Source: Actinomycetes bacterium (GTDB lineage: Bacteria; Actinomycetota; Acidimicrobiia; Acidimicrobiales; Ilumatobacteraceae). Taken from it: a stretch of 59,645 nt of DNA. Positions 10,523 to 59,645 of the stretch are shown here, piece by piece. Each line of letters opens with the position of its first letter. The first letter of the stretch is position 1. A program made the translations under genes and the position numbers. The stretch is from NCBI GenBank assembly GCA_021414085.1, contig JAIOPC010000016.1:1-59645 (forward strand), given 5' to 3'. A model generated the notes under the pieces. It did not search any database. It was not told the DNA's origin and saw only the letters and a program-made list of their open reading frames with translations.

Positions 10523-12040
10523 GCGTGGCGTTGCTCGAGCTGCCCTTGCTGTAGCGGTCATCCGTCGCGCGGCGGGCACGGCCGCCAACAACGCGGCGGC
10601 CTTGTTGCGACACTCGAGGTCTTCCTCGTCGGGGTCGGAGTCGGCGACCACGCCAGCACCCGCCTGGAACGACGCGCCATGCGCGCCAACGAACATCGTG
10701 CGGATCGCAATGGCAGTGTCGAGGTTGCCGCTGAAGTCGACATAACCAACAACGCCGGCATAGGGCCCGCGTTTCATCGGCTCGAGCGCATCGATCAACT
10801 GCATCGCCCGCACCTTCGGCGCCCCACTCACCGTTCCTGCCGGAAGCGTCGCGCGCAGAACATCGATCGGCGTCTTGCCTTCCAGCAACTCGCCACTCAC
10901 CTGCGACGTCAGGTGCATGACGTGGCTGTAGCGCTCGAGGCTCATCAACTCGTCGACGTGCATCGAACCGAACTGGGCGACGCGGCCGACGTCGTTGCGA
11001 GCAAGATCGACGAGCATGATGTGCTCCGCGACCTCCTTTGGGTTCTCGCGCAGCTCTCCTGCCATACGACGATCGTCCTCGTCGTCGCGACCGCGACGAC
11101 GGGTGCCAGCAATCGGCCGACTGATCACCTTTCGGCCGCGTACCTGCACCATTGGCTCCGGGGAACTACCAGCGATTGTGATCGCCGCGTGACGAAGGAA
11201 GTACATGTAAGGACTCGGGTTGACCTGACGCAGCACGCGATAGAAGTCGAAGGGATCGGCATCAAGTTGCACGTCGTAACGCTGCGCCAAAACGACCTGG
11301 AAGATGTCGCCGGCAACGATGTGTTCTTTCGCCACCCTGACCGCGTGCTGATACGCGCCACCCGCCATTGAGCTGCGCACCTCCGGCACAACCTCATCCG
11401 ATCGAGGTGGTTCCATCGCAACAGCCGACAACGGTCGCGAGAGATCGGCGATGGCCTCCTCCACACGAGCACAAGCCGAGTGATACGCAGCATCGACACC
11501 ATTTGCATCCAGCCCCAACACAGGCGTGCTCTCGATCAGGTACACGCGTTGGCGCCAGTGATCGAACGCCGCCAATGAACCGATGATGCTCATCACTGCG
11601 TCGGGGAATTGCCGATCGTCGTGTGGCGCGTCGGGCAGATGCTCGATCTCGCGCACTACGTCGTAACCGAGGTAACCCATCACCCCGCCTTGCAGCGGCG
11701 GCAGCTCGGCGATGATCGGCGCGCGATAGGCAGCGATCAGCGCGTCGAGGGCGGCCAGCATGCCGCGGTCGAGCGGTATGTCGGCCGTGAGTGGCGTTCC
11801 GGTAAGGGTGATGCGACCATCGCGCAACTGGAGCGTCGCAACCGGGTTACGGCCGACGAAGCTATAACGCGCCCAGCGCTCGCCGTGCTCGACGGACTCG
11901 AGCAGGAATCCTTCGCCGTCGCCCACCAACTTCAAATAGGCAGCGACCGGAGTCTCCAGATCGCCAAGCACTTCGGCCCACACCGGCACAACCGTGTGGT
12001 CAGCGGCAAGCGCTCGGAACTCTTCCAGGCTCGGCCGCAT
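10484..12040 (-). CDS. trpE: Anthranilate synthase component I
   Basis: The enzyme converts chorismate to anthranilate, the first step of tryptophan synthesis. The 518-residue protein has the N-terminal regulatory half (LLESVEHGERWARYSFVG, which includes the tryptophan-binding region) and a chorismate-binding domain. The latter shows QVNPSPYMYFLR, IAGSSPEPMV, SRPIAGTRRRG and LPAGTVSGAPKVRAM. ATG 12040 gives the usual TrpE N-terminus MRPSLEEFRALA. It follows the groES-like gene by 25 bases and may be cotranscribed. No trpG or other trp gene is in the window. The last 20 or so residues are a low-complexity tail. Confidence 0.95.
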   Translation of the reverse strand: MRPSLEEFRALAADHTVVPVWAEVLGDLETPVAAYLKLVGDGEGFLLESVEHGERWARYSFVGRNPVATLQLRDGRITLTGTPLTADIPLDRGMLAALDALIAAYRAPIIAELPPLQGGVMGYLGYDVVREIEHLPDAPHDDRQFPDAVMSIIGSLAAFDHWRQRVYLIESTPVLGLDANGVDAAYHSACARVEEAIADLSRPLSAVAMEPPRSDEVVPEVRSSMAGGAYQHAVRVAKEHIVAGDIFQVVLAQRYDVQLDADPFDFYRVLRQVNPSPYMYFLRHAAITIAGSSPEPMVQVRGRKVISRPIAGTRRRGRDDEDDRRMAGELRENPKEVAEHIMLVDLARNDVGRVAQFGSMHVDELMSLERYSHVMHLTSQVSGELLEGKTPIDVLRATLPAGTVSGAPKVRAMQLIDALEPMKRGPYAGVVGYVDFSGNLDTAIAIRTMFVGAHGASFQAGAGVVADSDPDEEDLECRNKAAALLAAVPAARRMTATARAARATPRSVDQAAYQQDRA

Positions 12041-12065
12041 CTCGTTGTTCTCGCTAGCCGTGTCG

Positions 12066-12392
12066 CTACAAGTACAAGCCGGTGCTGGCTTCGATGCGAG
12101 TCGCCGCCACTGCGTGCAGGTCGCGCTCGCGCAACATGATGAAGTCGGCGCCGCCGACTTCGACCTCGTAACGATCTTCCGGGCTGAACAGCACGCGATC
12201 GCCAACCTCGGCGCTGCGCACGTTCTGACCCAGCGCCACTACCTCAGCCCAGACCAAGCGCTTGGAGATCTGCGCCGTCGCCGGAATCAGGATTCCTCCG
12301 GTGGAACGGCGCTCACCATCGCGCTCAGGAATGCGCACAAGCAGCCGATCATTAAGCATCTTGATCGGGAGTTTCTGATCATCCAACGCCAC
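12066..12392 (-). CDS. GroES/Cpn10-like co-chaperonin, divergent and without groEL
   Basis: From MLNDRLLVRI to the end the protein matches the 10-kDa chaperonin fold: a mobile-loop region (ERRSTGGILIPATAQ), then WAEVVALGQNV, VGDRVLFSPED and FIMLRERDLHAV. It lacks the exact typical GroES terminus and carries an extra C-terminal tail. The start is uncertain. GTG 12392 has a TACCCT box six bases upstream and gives 108 residues; ATG 12359 gives 97. No groEL lies nearby, unlike the usual operon. The neighbour downstream is trpE. Confidence 0.75.
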   Translation of the reverse strand: MALDDQKLPIKMLNDRLLVRIPERDGERRSTGGILIPATAQISKRLVWAEVVALGQNVRSAEVGDRVLFSPEDRYEVEVGGADFIMLRERDLHAVAATRIEASTGLYL

Positions 12393-48060: not shown

Positions 48061-48657
48061 TTAGGGGACGGGCGTGAGCGCAGCGCGAAGGAACGCGAGT
48101 AGTTCCGTGCGCAGTCGCCGCAGTTCGGCGGTGGTCGGTTGCCAGCCGACGCTGCGCAGGACTTCCGGTTCGGTCGCGATGCCAGTCACTGTCGCGTAGC
48201 AAAGCCCGGCGATCAGTCGCGGATCGGCGTGCCGAATACGGCCACGATCCATCTCCTTGTGTAGGTACGCAACCGCGCGATCGACAAGCGGACGCAGTTC
48301 ACTCTGGAACCGCTCGCCCACCGTCGGCGACAAACGACTGACCTCGCGAATCAGCCCGAGTAACGCCGGGCGACGCACCGCCGGCCGGAACACCGCGCGC
48401 ACCACGGCTTCGATGCGATCAAGCGGGTCGTCGTTCGCGGACCGGATTGCGGCCTCGATAGCGACACTGAGCTGCGTCGCCGCCTGCACCAGAACGGCCT
48501 GCACCAGATCGTCCTTCGACGGAAACCAGTAGAGCAGCGTCTGCTTCGCGACGCCGACCTCAGCAGCGATGACATCGAGCGAAACAGCATCGACTCCACG
48601 CACCCCAAACAGATCGGTCGCCGCCTCCAGAATCCCTACGCGGGTGTCGCGCGCCAC
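48061..48657 (-). CDS. TetR-family transcriptional regulator
   Basis: The 198-residue repressor type has an N-terminal helix-turn-helix (ILEAATDLFGVRGVDAVSLDVIA, recognition part VAKQTLLYWFPSKDDLV) and a helical ligand domain. GTG 48657 is four bases after the vapC stop, so it is the third gene of a vapB-vapC-tetR operon. It faces the lipid-type operon starting at 49397, whose promoter carries a TetR-style palindrome; it is the best candidate to bind there. Confidence 0.9.
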   Translation of the reverse strand: MARDTRVGILEAATDLFGVRGVDAVSLDVIAAEVGVAKQTLLYWFPSKDDLVQAVLVQAATQLSVAIEAAIRSANDDPLDRIEAVVRAVFRPAVRRPALLGLIREVSRLSPTVGERFQSELRPLVDRAVAYLHKEMDRGRIRHADPRLIAGLCYATVTGIATEPEVLRSVGWQPTTAELRRLRTELLAFLRAALTPVP

Positions 48658-48661
48658 CGTG

Positions 48662-49075
48662 TCAGCCTGCCAGCAGTTCGAAGCGAACACCACAACGTCG
48701 ATACGTCTCCGCGGCGCGACGGTCGAGTGAGAGCAACGTCACGTCATGAATAGCTGCGGTTAGCGCAATCAGACCATCGAATGTCGCGCCACCAGAAACG
48801 CCACAAGCCACCAAGCTGGCTGGCAACGCTCGTAGAAAGTCGACATCGAGGGTCAACGTAGCTACGCACGCCGCGGCTAGGAAGTCGCGCACTAACTCAG
48901 GGGCGGCCCGGTGCGGCTCGGGAAGCCGAGTGAGCACCGAGTACGACTCGGCAATCGCGTGGCCGACGACGCCGGCTCCGTCGCGAAGTGCGCGCCGAGC
49001 GACATCATGCTGTTCGTGCCAGCTCGAGAAGCCGGCGACCAGCACGCTGGTGTCGACGACACGCCCGACGGTCAC
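48662..49075 (-). CDS. vapC: PIN-domain toxin, VapC type
   Basis: The 137-residue predicted ribonuclease has the acidic PIN residues: Asp in RVVDTSVLVAGF, Glu in HAIAESYSVLTRLP, Asp in GATFDGLIALTAA and a late Asp in LLSLDRRAAETY. The start overlaps the antitoxin gene by four bases, the usual toxin-antitoxin arrangement. The catalytic set looks complete, so the toxin is probably active. Confidence 0.88.
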   Translation of the reverse strand: MTVGRVVDTSVLVAGFSSWHEQHDVARRALRDGAGVVGHAIAESYSVLTRLPEPHRAAPELVRDFLAAACVATLTLDVDFLRALPASLVACGVSGGATFDGLIALTAAIHDVTLLSLDRRAAETYRRCGVRFELLAG

Positions 49076-49317
49076 CGTCGAATCGCCTCAAGGACGTCGC
49101 GAACTTGATCGGCCGTGAGCGGCGGCACCTGGCCGTCGGCGACGCAGACCAGTACTCCGTCGTTGCTCACCAAGCGCTTTCCGATCGGGCGCGGCGAGAT
49201 CACGATGCGACCGTCTTCGGCGATGACCTCGACATCGCCGCCATCACTCAAGCCAATGGAGTCTCGGAATGACTTCGGAATGACGACCCGGCCTGCCTTA
49301 TCGATGGTGGTTCGCAT
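49072..49317 (-). CDS. vapB: AbrB/SpoVT-type antitoxin, VapB
   Basis: The 81-residue protein has the swapped-hairpin DNA-binding fold TTIDKAGRVVIPKSFRDSIGL with GDVEVIAEDGRIVI. A C-terminal tail (QVPPLTADQVRDVLEAIRR) should block the VapC toxin. TAACGT ends six bases before ATG 49317, and direct repeats overlap that promoter. Confidence 0.9.
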   Translation of the reverse strand: MRTTIDKAGRVVIPKSFRDSIGLSDGGDVEVIAEDGRIVISPRPIGKRLVSNDGVLVCVADGQVPPLTADQVRDVLEAIRR

Positions 49318-49323
49318 GGCACA

Positions 49324-49346
49324 ACGTTACCATTTGGCTACCATTT
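49324..49346 (-). promoter_or_regulatory. vapB promoter with direct-repeat operator
   Basis: The minus-strand -10 TAACGT is at 49329-49324. TACCATTT occurs twice on the plus strand, at 49328-49335 and 49339-49346, an 11-base step that puts both on one DNA face. This suits cooperative autoregulation by VapB or VapBC. Confidence 0.5.
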
Positions 49347-49357
49347 CCTCACGCCCA

Positions 49358-49391
49358 TTGACGAATCTGTCTACCAACTGGTAGACAGATT
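49358..49391 (+). promoter_or_regulatory. Operon promoter covered by a TetR-type palindrome
   Basis: AATCTGTCTACC (49364-49375) and GGTAGACAGATT (49380-49391) form a perfect inverted repeat around AACT. TTGACG (49358-49363) is a good -35, and TAGACA (49382-49387) inside the right arm is the -10. A repressor bound here would block the polymerase. The start codon is only five bases downstream of the palindrome, so the mRNA is leaderless or nearly so. Confidence 0.7.
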
Positions 49392-49396
49392 TCCGC

Positions 49397-51742
49397 ATGA
49401 TTGCTGAACAACTCGCCAACAAGCGGATCGCCATCACCGGCAGCACCGGATTCGTGGGCACCGCGCTGGTTGAGCGCCTGTTACACAGCGTGCCCGACTG
49501 CACCCTCGTGTTGTTGGTGCGCCCGAGCAAGCGCCACGACGCCACCGAGCGGGTGCGCCGCGAGATCTTCAAGAACAACGCCTTCGACCGCCTGAAGGCG
49601 CAGTGCGCCGGAGGGGCCGAGACGTTCGACGAGATGATCGCTCGTCGTGTGGTGGCCATCGGGGGCGACGTCAGCACCGATGGACTCGGCCTCAACGACG
49701 CCGACCGCGCGGTCTTTGCTAGCTGCGACATCGTCATCCATTCAGCGGCCGCAGTTTCCTTCGACAGCCCGCTGGACAGCGCGGTCGAGATCAACCTGAT
49801 GGGCCCGGTGCGCGTCGCGCAGACCTTGCAGGCGCTCAACATCACGCCCCACATGGTGGCAGTGAGCACCTGCTACGTCGCCGGCAACCGGCGCGGCAAC
49901 GCGCCCGAAGCGTTGGTCAGCGATGGGCACTGGGACATCGGTCTCAACTGGCGCAAGGAAGTGGCGGCCAGCCGTCGCCTGCGCGGCGATGTTGAAGCCA
50001 ACAGTCGCGCCGCAACCGAGCTAGTCCGATTTCGCTCAGAGGCGCGCAAGGAACTCGGCGCCGCTGGCGGACCTGCGCTCGCGTCCAAGACCGAAAGCCT
50101 GCGCGAAGCATGGGTGAAGGCGCAACTGGTTGAGGCCGGTCGCGCGCGTGCGGCAAGCGTCGGTTGGCCCGATGCGTATGCGTACACGAAGGCACTCGGC
50201 GAGCAAGCACTGACCGAAATGAAAGGCAACGTCCCGGTCAACATCGTGCGACCGAGCATCATCGAGAGCGCTCTCGCGGAGCCGTTCCCCGGCTGGATCC
50301 GCGGTTTTCGCATGGCTGAGCCGGTCATCCTCAGTTACGCACGCGGTTTGCTGACCGAGTTCCCCGGCGTGCCCGAAGGAACTGTCGACGTCATCCCCGT
50401 CGACATCGTGGTCGCCGCGATCATCACCGTGGCAGCGATCGGTCCCGAGCGGGCCGCACCAATCACGCAAGTCGCGAGCGGTGGCATCAACCCACTGAAG
50501 TACAAGACGCTGGTCGACAACGTGCGCGCCTGGTTCACCAAGCACCCGTTGTACGACGCCGAAGGGCAGCCCATCGAAGTACCCGAGTGGCAGTTCCCGG
50601 CGCGTGGCCGCGTCAAAGAGCAGCTGCAGCGCGCAAAGGCGATCGCGGAGAAGACCGAGCGCGTGCTGCAGGCGTTGCCGCTGCGCGGCAAGCAGGCGAC
50701 CTGGGCCGCAAACCTGGAAGAGAAGAAGATCGAGATCGATCGCGCTTTCGAGTACGTGCAGCTCTACGGCTTGTACACCGAATGCGAAGCGATCTACCAA
50801 GTCGATCGGTTGATGGCGATGTGGGACTCGCTCGCTGCAGCCGATCAACGTGCCTTCAACTTCGACCCGAAGAGTGTCGACTGGCCGGTCTATATCAGCA
50901 CAATTCACTTGCCGTCGATCGTGCACCACTCGCGTGCCAAGGTCACTCCTGGCAAGAATCGCAACGATCGAACCGACCGCCTGCGCCGCTCGGTAATGTC
51001 ACCCGACCGGCACCTTGCAGCCTTCGATCTTGAGAACACTCTGATCGCCAGCAACGTGGTCGAGAGCTACTCGTTCCTCGCAACGCGCCGACTGAACACA
51101 CCCGAGCGCATCAGATACGTGCTGCGCACAATTGCGGAAGCGCCACGACTGAGCTCGATCGATCGCAAGGATCGCAGCGACTTCCTGCGCTTCTTCTACC
51201 GCCGCTACGAAGATGCCCCGATCGCGCAAATCGCCGAGGACTCCCCCGAACTGCTCACCCAATTGATCCTCGCCAAGTCGTTTCCCGCTGGACTGCGCCG
51301 CGTGCGCGAACACCGCGCGCTCGGTCATCGCACGATGTTGATCACGGGCGCGCTCGACTTCGCGGTCGAAGGTTTGCGTCCGTTGTTCGACGAGATTGTC
51401 TCCGCCAAACTGACGACACGCCCCGACGGCACGTACAGCGGCAACATGGGCGTGGTGCCCCCGACTGGCGAGACGCGCGCCGAGATTCTCGCCGACTACT
51501 GCGCGAGCGAGGGCCTGCGCTTGGAGGACAGCGTCGCTTACGCCGACAGCACCAGCGATCTACCGATGCTGGAAGCGGTCGGCTTCCCGGTTGCGGTCAA
51601 CCCCGAGACACGCCTCGCCGCTATTGCGCGCAAGCGCGGATGGCTGGTCGAGCACTGGGAGAAAGCCAGCGGCGCTCCCAAGATGCTGCTGCCGCTGGGC
51701 ACGATGCTTTCAGAGCGCGACCGTAAGCGGGTTTTCCAATGA
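49397..51742 (+). CDS. Fatty acyl-CoA reductase-like SDR fused to HAD-IB hydrolase
   Basis: The 781-residue protein has two enzymes. Residues 1 to about 400 form an extended SDR of the acyl-CoA/thioester reductase type: NAD(P) loop GSTGFVG (15-21), VSTCYVAGNRRG, active-site YAYTK (Tyr261, Lys265) and PSIIESALAEPFPGWIRGF. A helical bridge covers about 400-530. Residues 534-781 are a SerB-like HAD domain: FDLENTL (Asp544, Glu546, Thr548), MLITGALD, AKLTTRP and YADSTSDLPML. The second motif-I aspartate is Glu. It starts the operon and overlaps the next gene by four bases. Substrates are unknown. Confidence 0.85.
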   Translation: MIAEQLANKRIAITGSTGFVGTALVERLLHSVPDCTLVLLVRPSKRHDATERVRREIFKNNAFDRLKAQCAGGAETFDEMIARRVVAIGGDVSTDGLGLNDADRAVFASCDIVIHSAAAVSFDSPLDSAVEINLMGPVRVAQTLQALNITPHMVAVSTCYVAGNRRGNAPEALVSDGHWDIGLNWRKEVAASRRLRGDVEANSRAATELVRFRSEARKELGAAGGPALASKTESLREAWVKAQLVEAGRARAASVGWPDAYAYTKALGEQALTEMKGNVPVNIVRPSIIESALAEPFPGWIRGFRMAEPVILSYARGLLTEFPGVPEGTVDVIPVDIVVAAIITVAAIGPERAAPITQVASGGINPLKYKTLVDNVRAWFTKHPLYDAEGQPIEVPEWQFPARGRVKEQLQRAKAIAEKTERVLQALPLRGKQATWAANLEEKKIEIDRAFEYVQLYGLYTECEAIYQVDRLMAMWDSLAAADQRAFNFDPKSVDWPVYISTIHLPSIVHHSRAKVTPGKNRNDRTDRLRRSVMSPDRHLAAFDLENTLIASNVVESYSFLATRRLNTPERIRYVLRTIAEAPRLSSIDRKDRSDFLRFFYRRYEDAPIAQIAEDSPELLTQLILAKSFPAGLRRVREHRALGHRTMLITGALDFAVEGLRPLFDEIVSAKLTTRPDGTYSGNMGVVPPTGETRAEILADYCASEGLRLEDSVAYADSTSDLPMLEAVGFPVAVNPETRLAAIARKRGWLVEHWEKASGAPKMLLPLGTMLSERDRKRVFQ

Positions 51743-52893
51743 GCCGCCTGGTCTTCTCACGCAAGCCAGCGCGTTTCGCACTCGCCCGGGTCGCCGGGTC
51801 GATCATGCCTGGCGCGGGCGCCTCCTTTGGCCCGCTTGCCATCGAACCCGACGAGGAACTTCCGCTGCCAACACCAGAGTGGGTGCGCTTGAAGCCGCGT
51901 CTCGCTGGTATCTGTGGCAGCGACCTGGCGATGATCGACGGCACGGCCTCGGCCTACTTCGACCCGCTGGTCAGCTACCCCTTCACACCCGGTCACGAAG
52001 TCGTCGCGGATGTCGTCAATCCTGATGGCACCGCCGGGCGTCGCGTCGCCCTAGTGCCGGTGCTGTCGTGCATCACGCGCGGCATCGACCCGGTGTGTCC
52101 GGCTTGCGCGACCGGACAGATCAACTTGTGTGAGCGCGTCGCCTTCGGCCACCTTGAACCAGGACTGCAAACCGGATTCTGCAGCGACACCGGCGGTGGC
52201 TGGAGCAACGAGATGATCGCGCACCCCAGCCAACTCATCGATGTGCCAGCCGATCTGAGCGATGAAGCGGCCGTCCTTATCGAGCCGACTGCGTGCGCCG
52301 CGCACGCGGCTGCTCGATATACCGGCGACGAAACCGTGATCCTCGGCGCCGGCACGCTGGGCCTGCTCACACTCGCAGCCATCACCGCCCGCAACAACGA
52401 CCGGCGCGGACCGATCGTTGTCACCGCCCGCTATGCGGAGCAGAAGCGTCTAGCGAAACAGCTCGGCGCCGATGTCGTGTGCACCAGCGACGAACTGCCA
52501 CGCTGGGTCCGTAGCGCGAGCAAATCGCTGATGGTCGGAGATCAGCTCACGTGCGGCGCGCGACATGTCATCGATTGCGTGGGCAGCACCGAATCGATGC
52601 AACAGGCGTTGCAGGTCGTGGCGCCCGGCGGCGACGTACAACTCGTCGGCATGCCCAGCAATGTGTCGCTGGAGCTCACGTCGCTGTGGCATCGGGAAGT
52701 CGCGATTCGCGGTTGCTACGCCTATTCGCACGCCGACTTCCACGCCGCGATCGAAATCATCCGACACCACGATCTTGCACGCATGCTGTCGGCGACCTAC
52801 TCCCTCAGTGATTACACCGATGCCATCGCGCACGCCGCATCTGCCGGCCGCCGCGGCGCAGTCAAGATTGCGTTCGATATGAGAGGTAAATAG
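51739..52893 (+). CDS. Zinc-dependent medium-chain alcohol dehydrogenase
   Basis: The 384-residue MDR enzyme has catalytic-zinc motifs GICGSD and TPGHEVVADV. A structural-zinc cysteine cluster is seen in LSCITRG-DPVCPACATGQINLCERV, and the NAD loop is ETVILGAGTLGLLTLAAI. The ATG lies in the stop of the fused reductase (ATGA). Its place suggests it interconverts an alcohol and aldehyde or ketone of the same pathway as the acyl reductase. The first 25 residues are longer than in simple ADHs. Confidence 0.87.
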   Translation: MSRLVFSRKPARFALARVAGSIMPGAGASFGPLAIEPDEELPLPTPEWVRLKPRLAGICGSDLAMIDGTASAYFDPLVSYPFTPGHEVVADVVNPDGTAGRRVALVPVLSCITRGIDPVCPACATGQINLCERVAFGHLEPGLQTGFCSDTGGGWSNEMIAHPSQLIDVPADLSDEAAVLIEPTACAAHAAARYTGDETVILGAGTLGLLTLAAITARNNDRRGPIVVTARYAEQKRLAKQLGADVVCTSDELPRWVRSASKSLMVGDQLTCGARHVIDCVGSTESMQQALQVVAPGGDVQLVGMPSNVSLELTSLWHREVAIRGCYAYSHADFHAAIEIIRHHDLARMLSATYSLSDYTDAIAHAASAGRRGAVKIAFDMRGK

Positions 52894-52895
52894 CC

Positions 52896-54485
52896 ATGCC
52901 CCGTCCCGGTTTCGTACTCGAGGTCGATCGCTCGACGCCGCCAATCATGTTTTGGCGGGGCGAGAACTTCAGCCTGGAGAAACTACCTGCAGGCCGCAGC
53001 CGTGTCATCTATCCGCCGGAGCCCTTGGAAGCGCTCAGCGACATCGATGGAGCGATCCGCAATGCGCTGCTGCACCCAATCGATCAAGATCCGCTGGCTT
53101 CGCAAATGTTCCCGGGCATGAAGCTGACCATCGCGTTCGACGATGTCAGCCTGCCGCTACCCAAGATGCGACGCCCCGACGTGCGCCAGCGCGTCATCGA
53201 GGCCGTGCTCGACACTGCGGCCCAAGCAGGAGTCGACGATGTGCACATCATTGCTGCCCTTGGTCTGCATCGACGCATGCACGAATACGAACTGCGTCAT
53301 GCACTCGGCGATCGCGTCTACGACGCGTTCCACGGTCGCGGGATGCTGTATCAGCACGACGCCGAAGATCACGACAATCTCTCCGTGATCGGAACAACCG
53401 ATCACGGCGAAGTGCTGGAGATCAACAAGCGGGCAGCCGATAGCGACCTTGTTGTCTACGTCAACATCAACTCGGTGGCGATGGATGGTGGGTGGAAGAG
53501 CATCACTACGGGTCTTGCCTCATACCGCTGCCTGAGCTTTCACCACAATCCCGAGACGTTGGAGAACACCAAGAGCCTGATGGGTCATCGCCACCAGAGC
53601 GCGCTACACACCAGCGTGTGGCGCCTTGGGCAGGTCCTGAAGGATCACGGTCCCAAGATCTTCCAGATCGAAACCACGCTCAATACCGACATGTTCCCGT
53701 CGCCGTTCGAGTTCATCAACAAACGCGAGTGGGAATGGACTGCGAAGGATCGCGCCACATTCCTCGGCACGACCAAGTCGTTGAACCGCACGCCGATCAA
53801 GCTCGCACGCAAGATCTTCCACGGCATGGAAGGTCCGCACCAGATGACGAGCGTGCAAGCCGGCGAAACCGAAGCTGTGCACAAACTCACACTCGAACAC
53901 GTGCATCGTCAGCAACTGATGGAAGTCACGGGCCAGACCGACATCCTCACGCTCGGCATCCCGTTTGTGTGCCCCTATAACCCCGACGGTGTCATGAACC
54001 CGATTCTGGTGATGTGCATGGGGCTCGGCTACCTGTTCAACATGTACCGCAACAAGCCGTTGGTGCGTGAAGGCGGCGTCGTCATCATGACGCACCCCTG
54101 CTACCGCGACTTCAACCCGGTGCATCACCCGAGTTACATCGACTTCTTCGAGCAAGTGCTCTCCGACACCACCAGCCCAGCGGAGATGTCGCGCAAATGG
54201 GAGAAGCAGTACGCCGAGGACGAGTGGTACAAGCACCTCTATCGCACCGGCAACGCCTATCACGGCGTGCATCCGTTCTACGCCTGGTACTGGGGCGCAC
54301 ACGGCCTGCAACACGCGGGCAAGGTGATCATCGTTGGCGGCGACCCGCCGACCGTTCGTCGCCTCGGCTTCACACCGGCCAGCACGATGGACGATGCCTT
54401 CGAGATCGCCAGCGATGTCGTCGGCCGCTCGCCAACGATCACGCATCTGCACGTGCCGGCTCTGCTCATTGCGGACGTGCAGTGA
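52896..54485 (+). CDS. LarA-like (DUF2088) nickel-pincer-nucleotide enzyme homolog
   Basis: The 529-residue protein resembles lactate racemase LarA. FDDVSLPLP (81-89) corresponds to the substrate-site loop. ALGLHRRMHEYELRHALG has His125, and GGWKSITTGLASY has Lys201 with His217 following. The spacings His125-Lys201 (76) and Lys201-His217 (16) equal those of His108, Lys184 and His200 in the characterised LarA. The position equal to His174 is not histidine (Ile191). It should act as a racemase or epimerase on a 2-hydroxy acid-like group. It starts two bases after the dehydrogenase gene. Confidence 0.78.
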   Translation: MPRPGFVLEVDRSTPPIMFWRGENFSLEKLPAGRSRVIYPPEPLEALSDIDGAIRNALLHPIDQDPLASQMFPGMKLTIAFDDVSLPLPKMRRPDVRQRVIEAVLDTAAQAGVDDVHIIAALGLHRRMHEYELRHALGDRVYDAFHGRGMLYQHDAEDHDNLSVIGTTDHGEVLEINKRAADSDLVVYVNINSVAMDGGWKSITTGLASYRCLSFHHNPETLENTKSLMGHRHQSALHTSVWRLGQVLKDHGPKIFQIETTLNTDMFPSPFEFINKREWEWTAKDRATFLGTTKSLNRTPIKLARKIFHGMEGPHQMTSVQAGETEAVHKLTLEHVHRQQLMEVTGQTDILTLGIPFVCPYNPDGVMNPILVMCMGLGYLFNMYRNKPLVREGGVVIMTHPCYRDFNPVHHPSYIDFFEQVLSDTTSPAEMSRKWEKQYAEDEWYKHLYRTGNAYHGVHPFYAWYWGAHGLQHAGKVIIVGGDPPTVRRLGFTPASTMDDAFEIASDVVGRSPTITHLHVPALLIADVQ

Positions 54486-55507
54486 AGAATTCGGCACCCA
54501 CTCGGCTGCACTCGCTCGGCCAACTGCGCCGTGTCGTCAAGGTTGGCGATGCTGCGAGCGGTGCTGTGCGCACCGCACTGCGACCAATTCGCGCGCTTGG
54601 TTTCCCATACCGCAAGCCCATGGTGCCCAAGGGTGTCGTCGTGCCCGCCGATCCGAGCAAGCTGGGCGCGAACTTCGAAACCGGTTGGGCGCGTTCATCA
54701 GCTGCGAAGGCCGCCCGTGCCGTGGTTACCAACGGTCCTATGCGCGCGTTCGTGAAGGTTGTTGCGAGCCCCCAGGTGGTCGGCCTTGATCGGCTCGCCG
54801 ATTTGCAACGACTTGAGGAAACGCCGCCCGTCATCTTTGCCCCCAACCACCACAGTCACGTCGACACGCCGCTGATCATCACAGTCGTGCCCGAGCCGTG
54901 GCGTTCGACGCTTGTCGTCGCTGCCGCCGCCGACTACTTCTTCGACAAGCGCGGGAAGGGCGTGCTGGCTGCGCTCACGCTCAACGCGTTCCCAATCGAT
55001 CGCGAAGTCACCAGTCGCAAGAGCAGCGACGAACTACGCCGGCTCATCGAGGACGGTTGGAGCGTTGTGATCTATCCCGAGGGCGGGCGTTCACCCGATG
55101 GCTGGGGCCAAGAGTTCAAGGGCGGTGCCGCGTACCTTGCTAATCGCACAGGTGCCGCAGTCGTGCCGGTGTTCATCGATGGCACCGGCAGCATCTACGG
55201 CAAGGGCATGAAGCGACTGAAGCGTGGAACCACCAAGGTGATTTTCGGCACCCCGCTCTCGCCGATCGAGGGCGAATCGACGCGTCGCTTCAACGCGCGT
55301 ATCGAGGCCGCGGTCGCCGCGCTCGGCGACGAGGCCTTGACCGACTTCTGGACCTCGCGGCAACGCGCCGCGCAGGGCAAGAGCACCAAGCTCACCGGCC
55401 CTGAGTACAACGGGTGGCGCCGGCAATGGGCGTTGGCGGATCATCGCAAGCTTGGGCGAGCGGGTGTGCGCCGACGCCAAACTCGCCGCTGGCCTGATCT
55501 GGGCTAA
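54482..55507 (+). CDS. PlsC-type 1-acylglycerol-phosphate acyltransferase
   Basis: The 341-residue protein has acyltransferase block I NHHSHVD, a substrate-binding block with NAFPIDRE, and block III YPEGGRSPDG; it also shows VPVFIDGTGSIYGKG. It transfers an acyl chain from a thioester to a hydroxyl, classically of lysophosphatidate. The GTG start overlaps the LarA-like stop by three bases, making it the fourth gene of the operon. With the acyl reductase it points to a lipid product. Confidence 0.87.
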   Translation: MKNSAPTRLHSLGQLRRVVKVGDAASGAVRTALRPIRALGFPYRKPMVPKGVVVPADPSKLGANFETGWARSSAAKAARAVVTNGPMRAFVKVVASPQVVGLDRLADLQRLEETPPVIFAPNHHSHVDTPLIITVVPEPWRSTLVVAAAADYFFDKRGKGVLAALTLNAFPIDREVTSRKSSDELRRLIEDGWSVVIYPEGGRSPDGWGQEFKGGAAYLANRTGAAVVPVFIDGTGSIYGKGMKRLKRGTTKVIFGTPLSPIEGESTRRFNARIEAAVAALGDEALTDFWTSRQRAAQGKSTKLTGPEYNGWRRQWALADHRKLGRAGVRRRQTRRWPDLG

Positions 55508-55529
55508 CCGAACGGCGAACGCGTCGGAA

Positions 55530-56126
55530 TCAGCCCGAAGAAGCGTCTTCAGCGCACGGAATCTTGATCTTGGTGCCAACAATGAAGCCGCCGTACCCGT
55601 TGGTGTCTTCGTTGGCGGCATCCAGTGCCTTCACCGTGACGTGAAACTTGTCGGCGACGACCTTCGGGAAGTCGCCGGGCAACAGCGTGTAGTCGCCGCA
55701 GATCTCAGTGACGACCGGCGGCACCGTATCGCCCGTCTCAGTGCCGGTCGAAGGAATCGTCGCGCCAACCGGAATCTTGATCTTGAGCCCGACGAAGAAG
55801 ATGTCGTAGCCGGATGTCCCAGCGTTGACTTCGTTGAGTTCCTGCAGCGAGATTCCCCATGCACTGGCCACCGATGTTGGGTTGTCGCCGGCCTTCAGTT
55901 CGTACTCTTGAATCGTCGTTGTCTTGTCGCCGGGCACCGGAGGCAGCGTCGACTCTGGGATGGTGGGCTCCGTCACCGGCACGGTAGGAATCGTGGCCCA
56001 GTTGGTTGTGCCCAGGTTCACAACGGTGGCACCCGATTGCGTACCCGACGCGGTGCCGCAGGCGGACAGCAGGACGACCGCGCCGCCCGCAAGCACGCGG
56101 AATGGGGTGATCAATCGCCGTTTCAT
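55530..56126 (-). CDS. LysM-domain lipoprotein
   Basis: The 198-residue protein has a signal with LLSACG (lipidated cysteine near 23) and a threonine/proline-rich linker (about 30-70). Two LysM repeats follow: YELKAGDNPTSVASAWGIS to VGLKIKIP, and YTLLPGDFPKVVADKFHVT to VGTKIKIP. It should be anchored outside the membrane and bind peptidoglycan. TAGAAT ends eight bases before ATG 56126. It is convergent with the acyltransferase gene. Confidence 0.85.
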   Translation of the reverse strand: MKRRLITPFRVLAGGAVVLLSACGTASGTQSGATVVNLGTTNWATIPTVPVTEPTIPESTLPPVPGDKTTTIQEYELKAGDNPTSVASAWGISLQELNEVNAGTSGYDIFFVGLKIKIPVGATIPSTGTETGDTVPPVVTEICGDYTLLPGDFPKVVADKFHVTVKALDAANEDTNGYGGFIVGTKIKIPCAEDASSG

Positions 56127-56186
56127 CAACCCACATTCTACGACACCCCCTCACGTAAGTGGCGGCGGGTCGTTCGCAACGGACGG

Positions 56187-57596
56187 CTACAGCAGCGGTC
56201 GCGCGCTGGGCGCTATCGGCGTGGGCAACCTTGTGTCGCCCATCAACCAGTTGTCCACTCCCGCAGCACACGAGCGACCTTCGGCGATCGCCCACACGAT
56301 CAGGCTCTGACCGCGACCCATGTCGCCGGCAACGAACACCCCCGGAATCGACGACATGTACTGATCGTCACGGGCCACGTTGCCACGCTCGTCGTAACGC
56401 ACACCGAGCTGATCGAGCCATGCACCCTTCTCTGGCCCGACAAACCCGAGCGCCAGAAACACAACATCGGCCGGAAGCTCGCGCTCGCTGCCTGCCACCT
56501 TCTGGAAGCGCCCGTCGACCAGCGTGACCTCGTGCACAAGCAATGCACGAACGCGCCCGGCACGGTCGTCAACGAAGCGCTCGGTGTTGACGCTGTAAAG
56601 GCGATCGCCACCTTCCTCGTGTGCGGAAGTCACCTTGAACACCATCGCGAATTGTGGCCAAGGATTGCCACGCGCACGGCTGACCGGCGGCTGCGGCATG
56701 ATCTCCAGCTGAGTCACCGATGCAGCACCCTGGCGGTGCGCCGTTCCGAGACAGTCGGCACCGGTATCACCGCCACCAATGATGACAACGTGCATGCCAT
56801 TGACATCGATGGGCGACGACGCCAAGTCGCCTTGCTGCACGCGGTTGGCAAGCGGCAAGTACTCCATCGCTTGATGTATGCCCGCCAACTCGCGGCCGGG
56901 CACCGGCAGGTCTCGCCACGCGGTCGCGCCGCAGGCCAGCACGACGGCGTCGTAGGTGGCGAGCAGCACATCGATGTCGATCAGTGTTCCGACGGCGGCA
57001 TTGGTACGGAACTCCGTACCTTCAGCAACCATCTGCTCGATCCGACGATCGACGTGGTGCTTCTCAATCTTGAACTCGGGAATGCCGTACCGAAGCAGCC
57101 CGCCAATGCGATCAGCCCGTTCAAGCACCACTACGTCGTGACCAGCGCGGGTGAGTTGCTGCGCCGCTGCCAATCCTGCAGGCCCGCTGCCAACCACGAC
57201 GATTCGCTTGCCGGTCATCACCGCAGGCCGTTGCGGCGAAATCCATCCTTCATCCCACGCCCGATCGATGATGGATACCTCGACCTGCTTGATCGCGACA
57301 GGGATGTTGCTAATGCCGACCACGCAAGCCGACTCACACGGCGCAGGGCACAGGCGGCCCGTGAACTCGGGGAAGTTGTTGGTGGCGTGCAGTCGATCGA
57401 TGGCATCGCGCCAATGGTCGCGGTGGACGAGATCGTTCCAATCAGGAATCAGATTGCCCAGCGGGCAGCCGTTGTTGCAGAACGGGATGCCGCAGTCCAT
57501 ACAGCGACCGGCTTCGTGCGCGACCTGCGCACTGTCGTTGGCCTCGTAAACCTCGCGCCAATCCTTCAGGCGCACGAGGACAGGGCGCGCCGTCAT
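56187..57596 (-). CDS. gltD: Glutamate synthase small subunit
   Basis: The 469-residue protein delivers NADPH electrons to GltB. Cysteine motifs for two 4Fe-4S clusters are in [19 protein letters not shown] and [12 protein letters not shown]. The FAD loop is [16 protein letters not shown] and the NADPH loop [15 protein letters not shown]. The end [19 protein letters not shown] is typical. Its ATG overlaps the gltB stop (ATGA). Confidence 0.96.
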
Positions 57597-59645
57597 CGCC
57601 TGCTCGATTCCATGACACGGTCGAGGGTCTCAGCTTCATCGAGACCTTCCAGCTCCGCTTGCGCCCGAACGTCGATCACGCGTTGGTAGTCGGTGGGCAT
57701 CACCTTGCGGAACTGCTGCGCCGCGGACGGCCACTCCGCGACGATCGTGGCGGCAACTGGAGATCCAGTTAGCGCAACATGGCGTTGCAGCAAGTCAACG
57801 AGAAACGCAGCGTCCACATCGGACAACGGCTGCAGCTGCACCATCTCGGTGTTCAGGTCGGCCCCGAAGACCTCAGTCGGGTCGTAGACGTACGCGATCC
57901 CACCACTCATACCGGCGCCGAAGTTGCGCCCTGTCGGCCCGAGCACCACCACTCGCCCACCGGTCATGTATTCACAGCCATGGTCGCCGATCCCTTCGAC
58001 GACTGCGGTTGCCCCCGAGTTGCGCACGCAAAACCGTTCACCCACGATGCCGCGGATGAAGAGCTCGCCACTGGTCGCGCCATAGGCGATGACGTTGCCC
58101 GCGATCACATTGGTCTCGGCAGCGAAAGATGCACGCCGATCGGGCCGAATCACCAGCCGGCCACCCGAAAGTCCCTTGCCGACGTAGTCGTTCGCATCGC
58201 CTTCGAGCATCATCGTCACCCCACTGGGCACGAACGCGCCAAAGCTCTGCCCGGCGGCACCTGTGAAGCGCAGCGAGATCGTGTCCGATGGCAAGCCCGA
58301 GCCGCCGTGGACCCGTGTGATTGCCGAACCGAGCATGGTGCCGACGGAGCGATGCACGTTTCGAATCGGCAGCTCCAGCGACACCGTTTCGCCACGCTCG
58401 ATCGCAGGTTCGCAGGCAACGAGCAGCTGCTGATCGAGCGCCTCGACGAGCGCGTGATCCTGCGCAACCGATTGATGCAGCGTCTGCCCGTAGGGATTCG
58501 CCGGCGTCGCGAGTAGCGGGCTGATGTCCAGTCCGCCGAGCTTCCAATGATCGATTGCTGACCGAGTGTCGAGCGCATCGACGCAGCCGATCATTTCGCT
58601 CATCGTTCGGAATCCGAGCGCGGCCATGTGCTCGCGCACTTCCTGAGCGATGAATTCCATGAAGTTGACCACGAATTCGGGCTTACCGGTGAAGTGCTTA
58701 CGCAACGCAGGGTTCTGGGTCGCGACACCAACCGGACACGTGTCGAGGTGGCACACGCGCATCATCACGCATCCGCTGACCACCAGTGGTGCCGTTGCGA
58801 AGCCGAACTCCTCGGCACCGAGCAGCGCCGCGATCACCACATCGCGGCCGGTCTTCAATTGGCCGTCGGCCTGCACGACAATGCGATCGCGCAAACCGTT
58901 CAACAACAGCGTGTGCTGCACCTCGGCGACACCCAGTTCCCACGGGCCGCCGGCATGCTTCAGTGAGGTGAGCGGAGCAGCACCGGTGCCGCCGTCGTGA
59001 CCGCTGATGAGTACGACATCGGCCTTGGCCTTACACACCCCAGCGGCAACGGTGCCGACACCGACCTCGCTGACCAACTTGACGTGCACCCGGGCGGCAG
59101 GGTTCGCGTTCTTCAGGTCGTGGATCAGTTGCTTGAGATCCTCGATCGAGTAGATGTCGTGGTGTGGCGGAGGGCTAATCAACCCGACGCCCGGCGTGCT
59201 GTTGCGGGTGCTCGCGATCCACGGGTACACCTTGTGCGCCGGCAACTGGCCGCCCTCACCGGGCTTGGCCCCCTGAGCCATCTTGATCTGCAAATCGTCG
59301 GCGTTGACGAGGTACTCGCTGGTCACACCGAAGCGGCCGCTGGCCACCTGCTTGATGGACGAGTTCTTGCTGTCGCCCGAAGGATCCAGCTGATACCGCA
59401 CCGGATCCTCGCCGCCCTCGCCGGTGTTGCTGCGGCCGCCGAGCCGGTTCATGGCGATGGCGAGCGTCTCGTGGGCCTCCTTCGAGATCGACCCGTACGA
59501 CATCGCGCCGGTGGCGAACCGCTTCACGATCTCCTTGGCCGGCTCCACTTCCTCGAGCGGAATGGCCCCGCGACCGTCCGAAGACTCCTCGGACCAGTTG
59601 AAGTCGAGCAGACCGCGGAGCGTGAGCAGCTTCGTCTGCTGCTCG
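57593..59645 (-). CDS. gltB: Glutamate synthase large subunit, C-terminal part
   Basis: About 684 codons are visible; the 5' part, including the glutaminase domain, lies beyond the right edge. The FMN-barrel domain shows [44 protein letters not shown], and the 3Fe-4S cysteines in [17 protein letters not shown]. The C-terminal beta-helix has [11 protein letters not shown] and GVAY-like GGIAYVYD. GltBS converts 2-oxoglutarate and glutamine to two glutamates. It is translationally coupled to gltD. Confidence 0.96.

Follow-up and report, generated by a model that had tools for sequence, protein, structure and literature searches.

A recurrent actinobacterial cassette around a single-histidine LarA homologue as a candidate for ether glycerolipid synthesis

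The four genes and the residues of LarA

The subject of this analysis is a cassette of four genes at 49397-55507 on the forward strand of contig C16 of the 3.2-Mb genome of an actinobacterium of the Acidimicrobiales (assembly GCA_021414085.1, G000 in our sample); this contig, 59,645 nucleotides at its full length, is called the window below. The genes encode a fatty acyl reductase fused to a phosphatase domain, an alcohol dehydrogenase, a homologue of the lactate racemase LarA and an acyltransferase. Genes 1 and 2 overlap by 4 nt, as do genes 3 and 4, and 2 nt separate genes 2 and 3 (Table 1). A first-pass annotation, drawn from the sequence alone, had described one compact unit of these same four families, with overlaps or gaps of at most two bases: the families are borne out by profile matches, the close packing by the gene coordinates, and the compact unit by this packing and by a gene order which recurs in other genomes. 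The mechanical open reading frame (ORF) of gene 4 begins at 54197, and we picked its GTG start for the 4-nt overlap. The packing, the conserved order and the single upstream palindrome suggest that the four genes form one transcript. A scan of 49200-55800 with the sigma-70 consensus gave no promoter match, and the number of predicted terminators, 7, was close to the chance mean of 5.1.

Table 1. Positions of the cassette genes, of the features upstream of them, and of members of the diiron-like family c25 at other loci
Feature	Position	Strand	Remarks
Gene 1, fatty acyl-CoA/ACP reductase (NAD_binding_4 + Sterile-like) fused to HAD-IB phosphatase domain	49397-51742	+	ATG start, 781 aa; family profiles
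Gene 2, zinc-dependent medium-chain dehydrogenase/reductase (MDR) alcohol dehydrogenase, polyol/threonine-dehydrogenase-like	51739-52893	+	ATG start, 384 aa; 4-nt overlap with gene 1
Gene 3, single-histidine LarA-like enzyme of the nickel-pincer nucleotide (NPN) type, LarAH14/15/16 family	52896-54485	+	ATG start, 529 aa; 2-nt gap after gene 2
Gene 4, PlsC-type glycerolipid acyltransferase	54482-55507	+	GTG start; PF01553
Probable TetR operator, perfect palindrome with 8-bp arms, GTCTACCA-AC-TGGTAGAC	49369-49386	.	10 bases (49387-49396) before the start codon of gene 1
TetR-family gene, probable cassette regulator	48061-48693	-	PF00440; N-terminal start uncertain
PIN-domain gene	48662-49075	-	between TetR gene and operon
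AbrB/MazE-type antitoxin	49072-49317	-	between TetR gene and operon
c25 members, LarA-type loci	L138:3552-4487; L129:3486-4424; L132, L157, L158, L172, L123		
c25 members, AGPS-type locus	L257:8153-8980 and 11292-12086		both sides of gene 1

Three of the four enzymes keep the motifs of their families. Gene 1 scores 197 bits with NAD_binding_4 and 77.7 bits with HAD, its Sterile domain being weak (33.6 bits, under the cut-off of 35.4), and its best solved relative is the fatty acyl-CoA reductase 7eoz (E 2.8e-61). In an alignment of 112 sequences its reductase motifs S-T-x-Y and Y-x-x-T-K are kept and the Asp motifs of the HAD domain are conserved, the second residue of motif I being Glu in about half of them. 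The zinc-ligand motifs of gene 2 are kept in at least 96% of 123 aligned sequences, and the motifs H-x4-D, P-E-G-x-R and P of gene 4 are conserved over 121.

Gene 3 departs from the classical enzyme. It matches Lar_N and the NCBIfam equivalog NF052592, "LarAH14/15/16", the latter with 855 bits for a cut-off of 740 and over model positions 1-520 of 520. We mapped its residues by an alignment to a solved LarA (6c1w), extended over 135 sequences of the family. The sites of the NPN-binding Lys184 and of the nickel ligand His200 are K and H in all 135 sequences, the Asp72 site is D in 134, and the site of the first catalytic histidine, His108, is H throughout. The site of the second one, His174, is N in 118 sequences, T in 16 and S in one, so that the classical LarA pair is absent; likewise, the site of Arg75, which binds carboxylate or phosphate, is L in 105, I in 26, C in two and V in two. 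In the LarA of the window, H125, K201 and H217 are kept, while N192 stands for His174 and L86 for Arg75. Since none of the 135 sequences has the second catalytic histidine or the arginine which binds the substrate, we concluded from these alignments that the cassette LarA is probably not an ordinary 2-hydroxyacid epimerase; a racemase identity was rejected on the same missing catalytic residues. The AlphaFold model of gene 3 (predicted local distance difference test, pLDDT, 91.3) finds its best fold match in LarASp (9q3k, Z 39.4 over 453 residues), the lactate racemases scoring about 28-31. One sequence, from locus L191, was excluded from the alignment used for folding, its translated LarA having aligned to that of the window at only 19%.

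Groups 14 and 15 of the LarA superfamily are described as devoid of His174, and the same paper states that no enzyme of this kind has been characterised (PMC12611868). A purified LarAH14 from Frankia was inactive in seven racemase and epimerase assays, its NPN loading not being stated in that account; the corresponding text gives no function for the LarAH14/15/16 group, speculates on other hydride-mediated reactions for LarA homologues, and contains neither "lipid" nor "fatty" in its main part (Desguin et al., PMC7583248).

Some relatives outside the cassette may be mentioned here. A sister group of LarA proteins (L096-L101), 35-39% identical to that of the window, is likewise devoid of His174. 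In six of the seven loci of family f30 this sister LarA directly follows a CaiB-type CoA-transferase, which hints at a CoA-acid substrate. Three f52 proteins related to NF052592 (L104, L105, L106) have neither the NPN lysine, nor the nickel histidine, nor His108, and are probably not NPN enzymes. The remote relatives (a group at roughly 350 bits, families f30, f36 and f43) were rejected as a guide to function, for they have other neighbours.

Conservation, cofactor genes and probable control of the cassette

NF052592 was over its cut-off in 85 of 396 genomes sampled from the phylum. Other phyla were covered solely by a scan of GTDB genomes, which gave at least 578 stretches encoding a relative. 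The best 80 of these include Frankia, Nocardioides, Kribbella, Actinomadura, Micromonosporaceae, Nitriliruptorales and Acidimicrobiales; 79 of the 80 have actinobacterial titles, and the exception, titled Acidobacteria, bears the TetR family of the order of the window. The named loci with the greatest similarity to the window are those of Acidimicrobiales and Aquihabitans. We then considered 134 distinct loci, namely 60 from genomes over cut-off (85 in all) and 74 from the set of 80 named loci (taken without individual NF052592 scoring), six duplicates among 140 having been dropped. A partner was counted if it lay on the same strand as LarA, at a distance of up to 9 kb for the reductase/HAD, 8 kb for the dehydrogenase and 3 kb for PlsC, and only at loci with enough flank. 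As our gene caller is a simple script which misses some starts, these counts rest on raw ORFs.

The reductase/HAD gene lies upstream of LarA in all 115 assessable loci, the dehydrogenase accompanies it in 126 of 127, and PlsC is located downstream of it in 115 of 125. The same succession of reductase/HAD, dehydrogenase, LarA and PlsC is repeated across the locus maps. Where a dehydrogenase is present, it is at most 2 kb from LarA, stop to stop, in 126 of 131 loci, and in several loci of the Rubrobacteraceae (family f26) other genes intervene between the two. PlsC is missing from ten loci, nine of which are from this same family; in eight of these nine a PlsY gene directly precedes gene 1, the ninth locus being cut at that point; one such PlsY, checked with TIGR00023, scored 161 bits for a cut-off of 137. 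The partner counts led us to reject a chance cluster. A plasmid-borne module was also rejected, LarA having given three distant plasmid matches only. The first-pass annotation had held that synteny beyond the genus would favour a dedicated system and that families not co-occurring elsewhere would refute it: the synteny reaches Acidimicrobiales, Nitriliruptorales, Frankia, Nocardioides, Kribbella, Actinomadura and Rubrobacteraceae, and the recurrence of the cassette across the loci considered clearly speaks against the second outcome.

Counted by genome, LarA and gene 1 go together more often than chance would give: both occur in 88 of the 396, LarA alone in three, gene 1 alone in six, and neither in 299. 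The 91 genomes taken as LarA-positive are the 85 over cut-off and six with fragments, and the 94 taken as reductase-positive are what remains of 117 matching genomes once 23 with a match to the HAD part only are dropped. In all six genomes with gene 1 alone, the contig ends where LarA would follow, at most 230 nt past the dehydrogenase; the three genomes with LarA alone are 60-79% complete.

The genes for the NPN cofactor are found with the cassette at several scales. At least one of larB, larC and larE is inside the fetched stretch in 28 of the 134 loci, sometimes directly after PlsC or before gene 1. The genome of the window has larB and larC on contig C8 with a 4-nt overlap (AIRC and LarC1 over cut-off), larE on contig C1 (over cut-off), and a single LarA that passes the Lar_N cut-off, with a second match falling short of it. 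With LarC counted at E 0.001 (243 genomes, 241 of them over cut-off), it is present in 18 of 20 LarA-positive and 0 of 18 LarA-negative genomes of the class of the window, and in 80 of 91 against 163 of 305 in the sample of the phylum. Because of these neighbouring genes, of those in the genome itself and of the co-occurrence with LarC, the cassette LarA very probably uses NPN. Two carriers from the order of the window, G252 (locus L069) and G284, have LarA and no LarC match; the cassette of the former is also without the dehydrogenase, and is perhaps a decaying or altered version.

Upstream of gene 1 we noticed a palindrome, TCTACCA-nn-TGGTAGA, which recurs with a TetR homologue. One family of such regulators is present in the fetched stretch of 36 of the 134 loci and in the window. 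With at most two mismatches, and the window included, the palindrome precedes gene 1 in 27 of 33 TetR-bearing loci and in four of 81 other assessable loci; it is exact in 14 of the former and in one of the latter. Over 2.06 Mb of fetched loci, the window apart, its exact form has 14 matches, all at the site upstream of gene 1. In the genome of the window, exact CTACCANNTGGTAG is found only at the window site, and two matches with one mismatch elsewhere are in coding genes or at their edge. When one mismatch was allowed, a reversed control pattern gave 11 matches per strand against three for the operator; for this reason we used only the exact match and claim no wider regulon. Within the window alone, the three operator matches with at most two mismatches were equalled by three of 100 shuffles. 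These observations suggest that the cassette is under TetR control.

In the nearest relative, L088, the TetR gene directly adjoins the operon, and hence the PIN/AbrB toxin-antitoxin pair of the window looks inserted between them. Past the cassette, on the reverse strand at 55530-59548, there are a gene for a LysM protein and then, as judged by eye, genes for glutamate synthase subunits; the LysM family is at the same place in six of eight loci of the family of the window, a stable neighbourhood which is probably unrelated to the cassette.

A proposed ether-lipid pathway and the competing readings

The connection with ether lipids comes from a sister locus (L257) on a megaplasmid of Streptomyces sp. 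NBC_01450. The same reductase/HAD protein (35.5% identity over 97%) is there within 20 kb of a divergent PlsC-AGPS pair, whose AGPS (alkyl-dihydroxyacetone phosphate synthase, a flavin enzyme) is beyond doubt, with a SHHHGVG motif and a match over 492 residues, at E 1.6e-114, to the Dictyostelium enzyme 2uuu. We found no match to LarA or to the cassette dehydrogenase in the 20 kb around this reductase, and no LarA on the whole plasmid. As far as gene content can tell, this locus appears to be a natural swap of the dehydrogenase and LarA for AGPS, which supports an ether-lipid reading. The LarA-type and the AGPS-type cassettes share further parts, since family c25 occurs with both; among the 134 LarA-type loci it is upstream of gene 1 in seven, and overlaps gene 1 or is directly coupled to it in three. 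Family c25 has conserved E/H motifs, a weak match to rubrerythrin and a structure model of low confidence (pLDDT 59.6); it may be a diiron oxygenase, or else a desaturase, with the same lipid as its substrate.

The second indication comes from the Rubrobacteraceae, in which 36 of 38 genomes have LarA or the reductase, the cassette-bearing Rubrobacter xylanophilus DSM 9941 (G041) among them. Only one genome of the 38 (G173) has an AGPS match at 1e-30. The three FAD-oxidase_C proteins of R. xylanophilus are all without the HHHG motif, which we take to be that of AGPS, and in three 100%-complete genomes of the family all eight FAD-oxidase_C proteins have the motif EHG, presumably of the glycolate-oxidase type, and none has HHHG. 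According to the title of a paper, five Rubrobacterales species are dominated by mixed ether/ester lipids. DUF2229, which we assign to PlsA/Ger, was not found in the five genomes searched, namely that of the window and four of the Rubrobacteraceae, R. xylanophilus included. The abstract of the Rubrobacterales lipid study is said to mention a putative operon that would make 1-O-alkyl glycerol phosphate, and the cassette described here may be that operon.

We therefore favour, with a probability of about one half, the reading that the four genes make up a dedicated and probably TetR-controlled cassette for 1-O-alkyl (ether) glycerolipids, in which the dehydrogenase and the single-histidine LarA would replace AGPS. 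The first-pass annotation had suggested lipid synthesis from acyl-CoA, and on this point it is supported, lipids made from acyl-thioesters being the probable theme. The reductase would convert a fatty acyl-thioester into the fatty alcohol (or the aldehyde). At the AGPS-bearing sister locus, the fatty alcohol would displace the acyl group of acyl-dihydroxyacetone phosphate (acyl-DHAP). In the cassette, the dehydrogenase and the NPN-dependent LarA would jointly carry out the redox-coupled step of AGPS and of alkyl-DHAP reductase; as they would stand in for AGPS, they should together give alkyl-glycerol-3-phosphate. PlsC, or PlsY in the Rubrobacteraceae, would then add the acyl chain, and the HAD domain would remove a phosphate where a neutral lipid or a diradylglycerol is called for. 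For LarA, the most probable chemistry would be a transient oxidation, in which NPN takes the hydride of the carbinol and His125 the proton of its hydroxyl; one histidine would be enough, because both are returned after the substitution. Such a reversible oxidation of the carbinol in place would be the most economical role for an NPN enzyme with one histidine. That the pair constitutes a further, aerobic route to the ether bond, NPN oxidising the carbinol, the fatty alcohol replacing the acyl group (or the hydroxyl) and the same hydride being returned, we regard as a tentative and rather unlikely proposal.

Several points weigh against the ether-lipid reading. We know of no NPN enzyme which forms C-O bonds. 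LarC is missing from 11 of the 91 LarA-positive genomes and present in 163 of the 305 others. In one genome of the Rubrobacteraceae outside the 134 loci (G065), LarA and gene 1 are both kept on different contigs. The swap with AGPS is seen at one plasmid locus, for which the plasmid sequence alone was compared. R. xylanophilus, presumably one of the five species of the lipid study, has three HHHG matches in its DNA, none of them in its FAD-oxidase_C proteins. AGPS itself is not foreign to carriers of the cassette: the genome of the window has two AGPS-like HHHG proteins unlinked to the cassette (G000:C9:189302-190000 and G000:C3:9558-10301, loci L264 and L265), strong AGPS matches (200 bits or more) occur in six of 91 LarA-positive genomes, and an AGPS query meets an ORF outside the cassette in three of the 134 loci, and inside it in none. 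Hence LarA need not be the only route to ethers in these organisms. The figure for LarA-negative genomes is 66 of 305; this anti-correlation of AGPS with LarA would favour the ether-lipid reading, and it is confounded by ancestry. Protein searches took the place of a survey by DNA motif, which matched 199 of the 396 genomes and was too noisy to be used alone. The three neighbouring AGPS-like ORFs score about 257 bits (L049 and L187) and 69 bits (L148); the first two, at L049:17408-19435 and L187:18-1778, are a few genes from the cassette, both in acidimicrobial loci.

Other products may be imagined with the same enzymes. The lipid might have a backbone other than glycerol, such as a long-chain 1,2-diol or another alcohol: LarA would shift a hydride to turn a 2-hydroxyaldehyde into a ketol, the dehydrogenase would reduce it and PlsC would acylate the secondary hydroxyl. 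One histidine is well suited to moving a hydride onto a neighbouring site, a general suggestion found in the text of Desguin et al. (PMC7583248), and the reductase and dehydrogenase would yield a diol; this leaves both the sister locus with AGPS and the PlsY of the Rubrobacteraceae without explanation, and we hold it unlikely. Alternatively, an unusual glycerolipid might have its polar backbone, a glycerol- or sugar-phosphate, supplied or modified by LarA, while the reductase makes a free fatty alcohol or a wax precursor. Gene 2 does resemble polyol dehydrogenases, and the closest solved relatives, LarASp and LarABw, are encoded close to glycolysis genes and might have sugar phosphates as substrates, according to the part of their description used here (PMC12611868). 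As LarA is tied to the reductase at every assessable locus and no sugar gene is constant across the maps, this backbone role is quite unlikely.

The first-pass annotation had offered, as one reading, a glycerolipid or hydroxy-lipid whose 2-hydroxy group is epimerised. More generally, LarA would epimerise an acid or an acyl chain of the 2-hydroxy (or glycerate) type, which would then be reduced by the reductase and the dehydrogenase, dephosphorylated by the HAD domain and acylated by PlsC. The members of the LarA superfamily whose activity is given in the available accounts act on 2-hydroxyacids (PMC7583248, PMC11770544), and the remaining enzymes suit any acyl-derived lipid. Against a simple epimerisation stand the residues at the His174 and Arg75 sites in 135 of 135 sequences and the inactivity of the Frankia enzyme in the seven assays reported (PMC7583248); the maps show no further constant gene to supply a 2-hydroxy acid, and the gene context points rather to ether lipids than to a 2-hydroxy product; we consider such a pathway very unlikely. 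Finally, an operon for the turnover or detoxification of fatty aldehydes or alcohols, with a LarA that drift has left with a minor function, is most improbable: TetR control and a dehydrogenase are common in such operons, but the acyltransferase and the NPN genes travel with the cassette and the gene order is kept across many families.

Significance and comparison with known systems

An orphan class of nickel-pincer enzymes, with a single catalytic histidine and no known reaction, thus gains a specific candidate pathway and partners which can be tested. The cassette would also be a candidate for ether-lipid synthesis without AGPS or PlsA/Ger in some aerobic actinobacteria, which touches the live question of the "lipid divide". 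Should LarA form the ether bond or enable it, the chemistry of NPN would reach beyond racemisation; if moreover the hydride is returned as proposed, LarA would be an NPN enzyme other than a racemase or an epimerase and a parallel in biology to borrowing-hydrogen pincer catalysis, and the presence of ether lipids in Rubrobacter without AGPS would be explained. Which uncultured actinobacteria produce lipids of this kind may be predicted from the cassette together with the cofactor genes and the operator. Among the literature matches listed, no link of NPN or of lactate racemase to ether lipids was in print.

The cassette resembles the AGPS pathway (FAR1, GNPAT, AGPS, AGPAT) by its fatty acyl-reductase and its glycerolipid acyltransferase, and the sister locus has a real AGPS; it differs in that a dehydrogenase and an NPN enzyme take that place. 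Like PlsA/Ger, the anaerobic ester-to-ether reductases, it would make ether bonds, whereas DUF2229 was not found in the five genomes checked. The elb operon of Myxococcus (ElbA-E), described as the main ether route there with AGPS as a minor one, likewise has a FAR domain, a HAD protein (ElbB) and an AGPAT-like acyltransferase; in the account used here its ElbD is a fusion FAR-ACS-ACP-acyltransferase, whereas gene 1 is FAR-HAD only and ACS and ACP are absent from the four genes (PMC9131029). The likeness to this largely AGPS-independent route is a further point in favour of the ether-lipid reading.

On the side of LarA, the protein of the window belongs by its score to the LarAH14/15/16 group (NF052592), as does the LarAH14 of Frankia. 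It has the Asn which defines the single-histidine subfamily (N192), yet 17 of the 135 members of its family have T or S there. With LarASp (9q2u/9q3k) and LarABw (9q3j) it shares the whole fold, the Asn at the His174 site and a conserved Tyr and two His in the C-domain; its identity to LarASp in the structural alignment is 24%. At the Arg75 site, these two enzymes are described with a Lys (PMC12611868), whereas the LarA of the window has the hydrophobic L86, and their genes stand in a carbohydrate context, whereas that of the cassette stands among genes for lipids.

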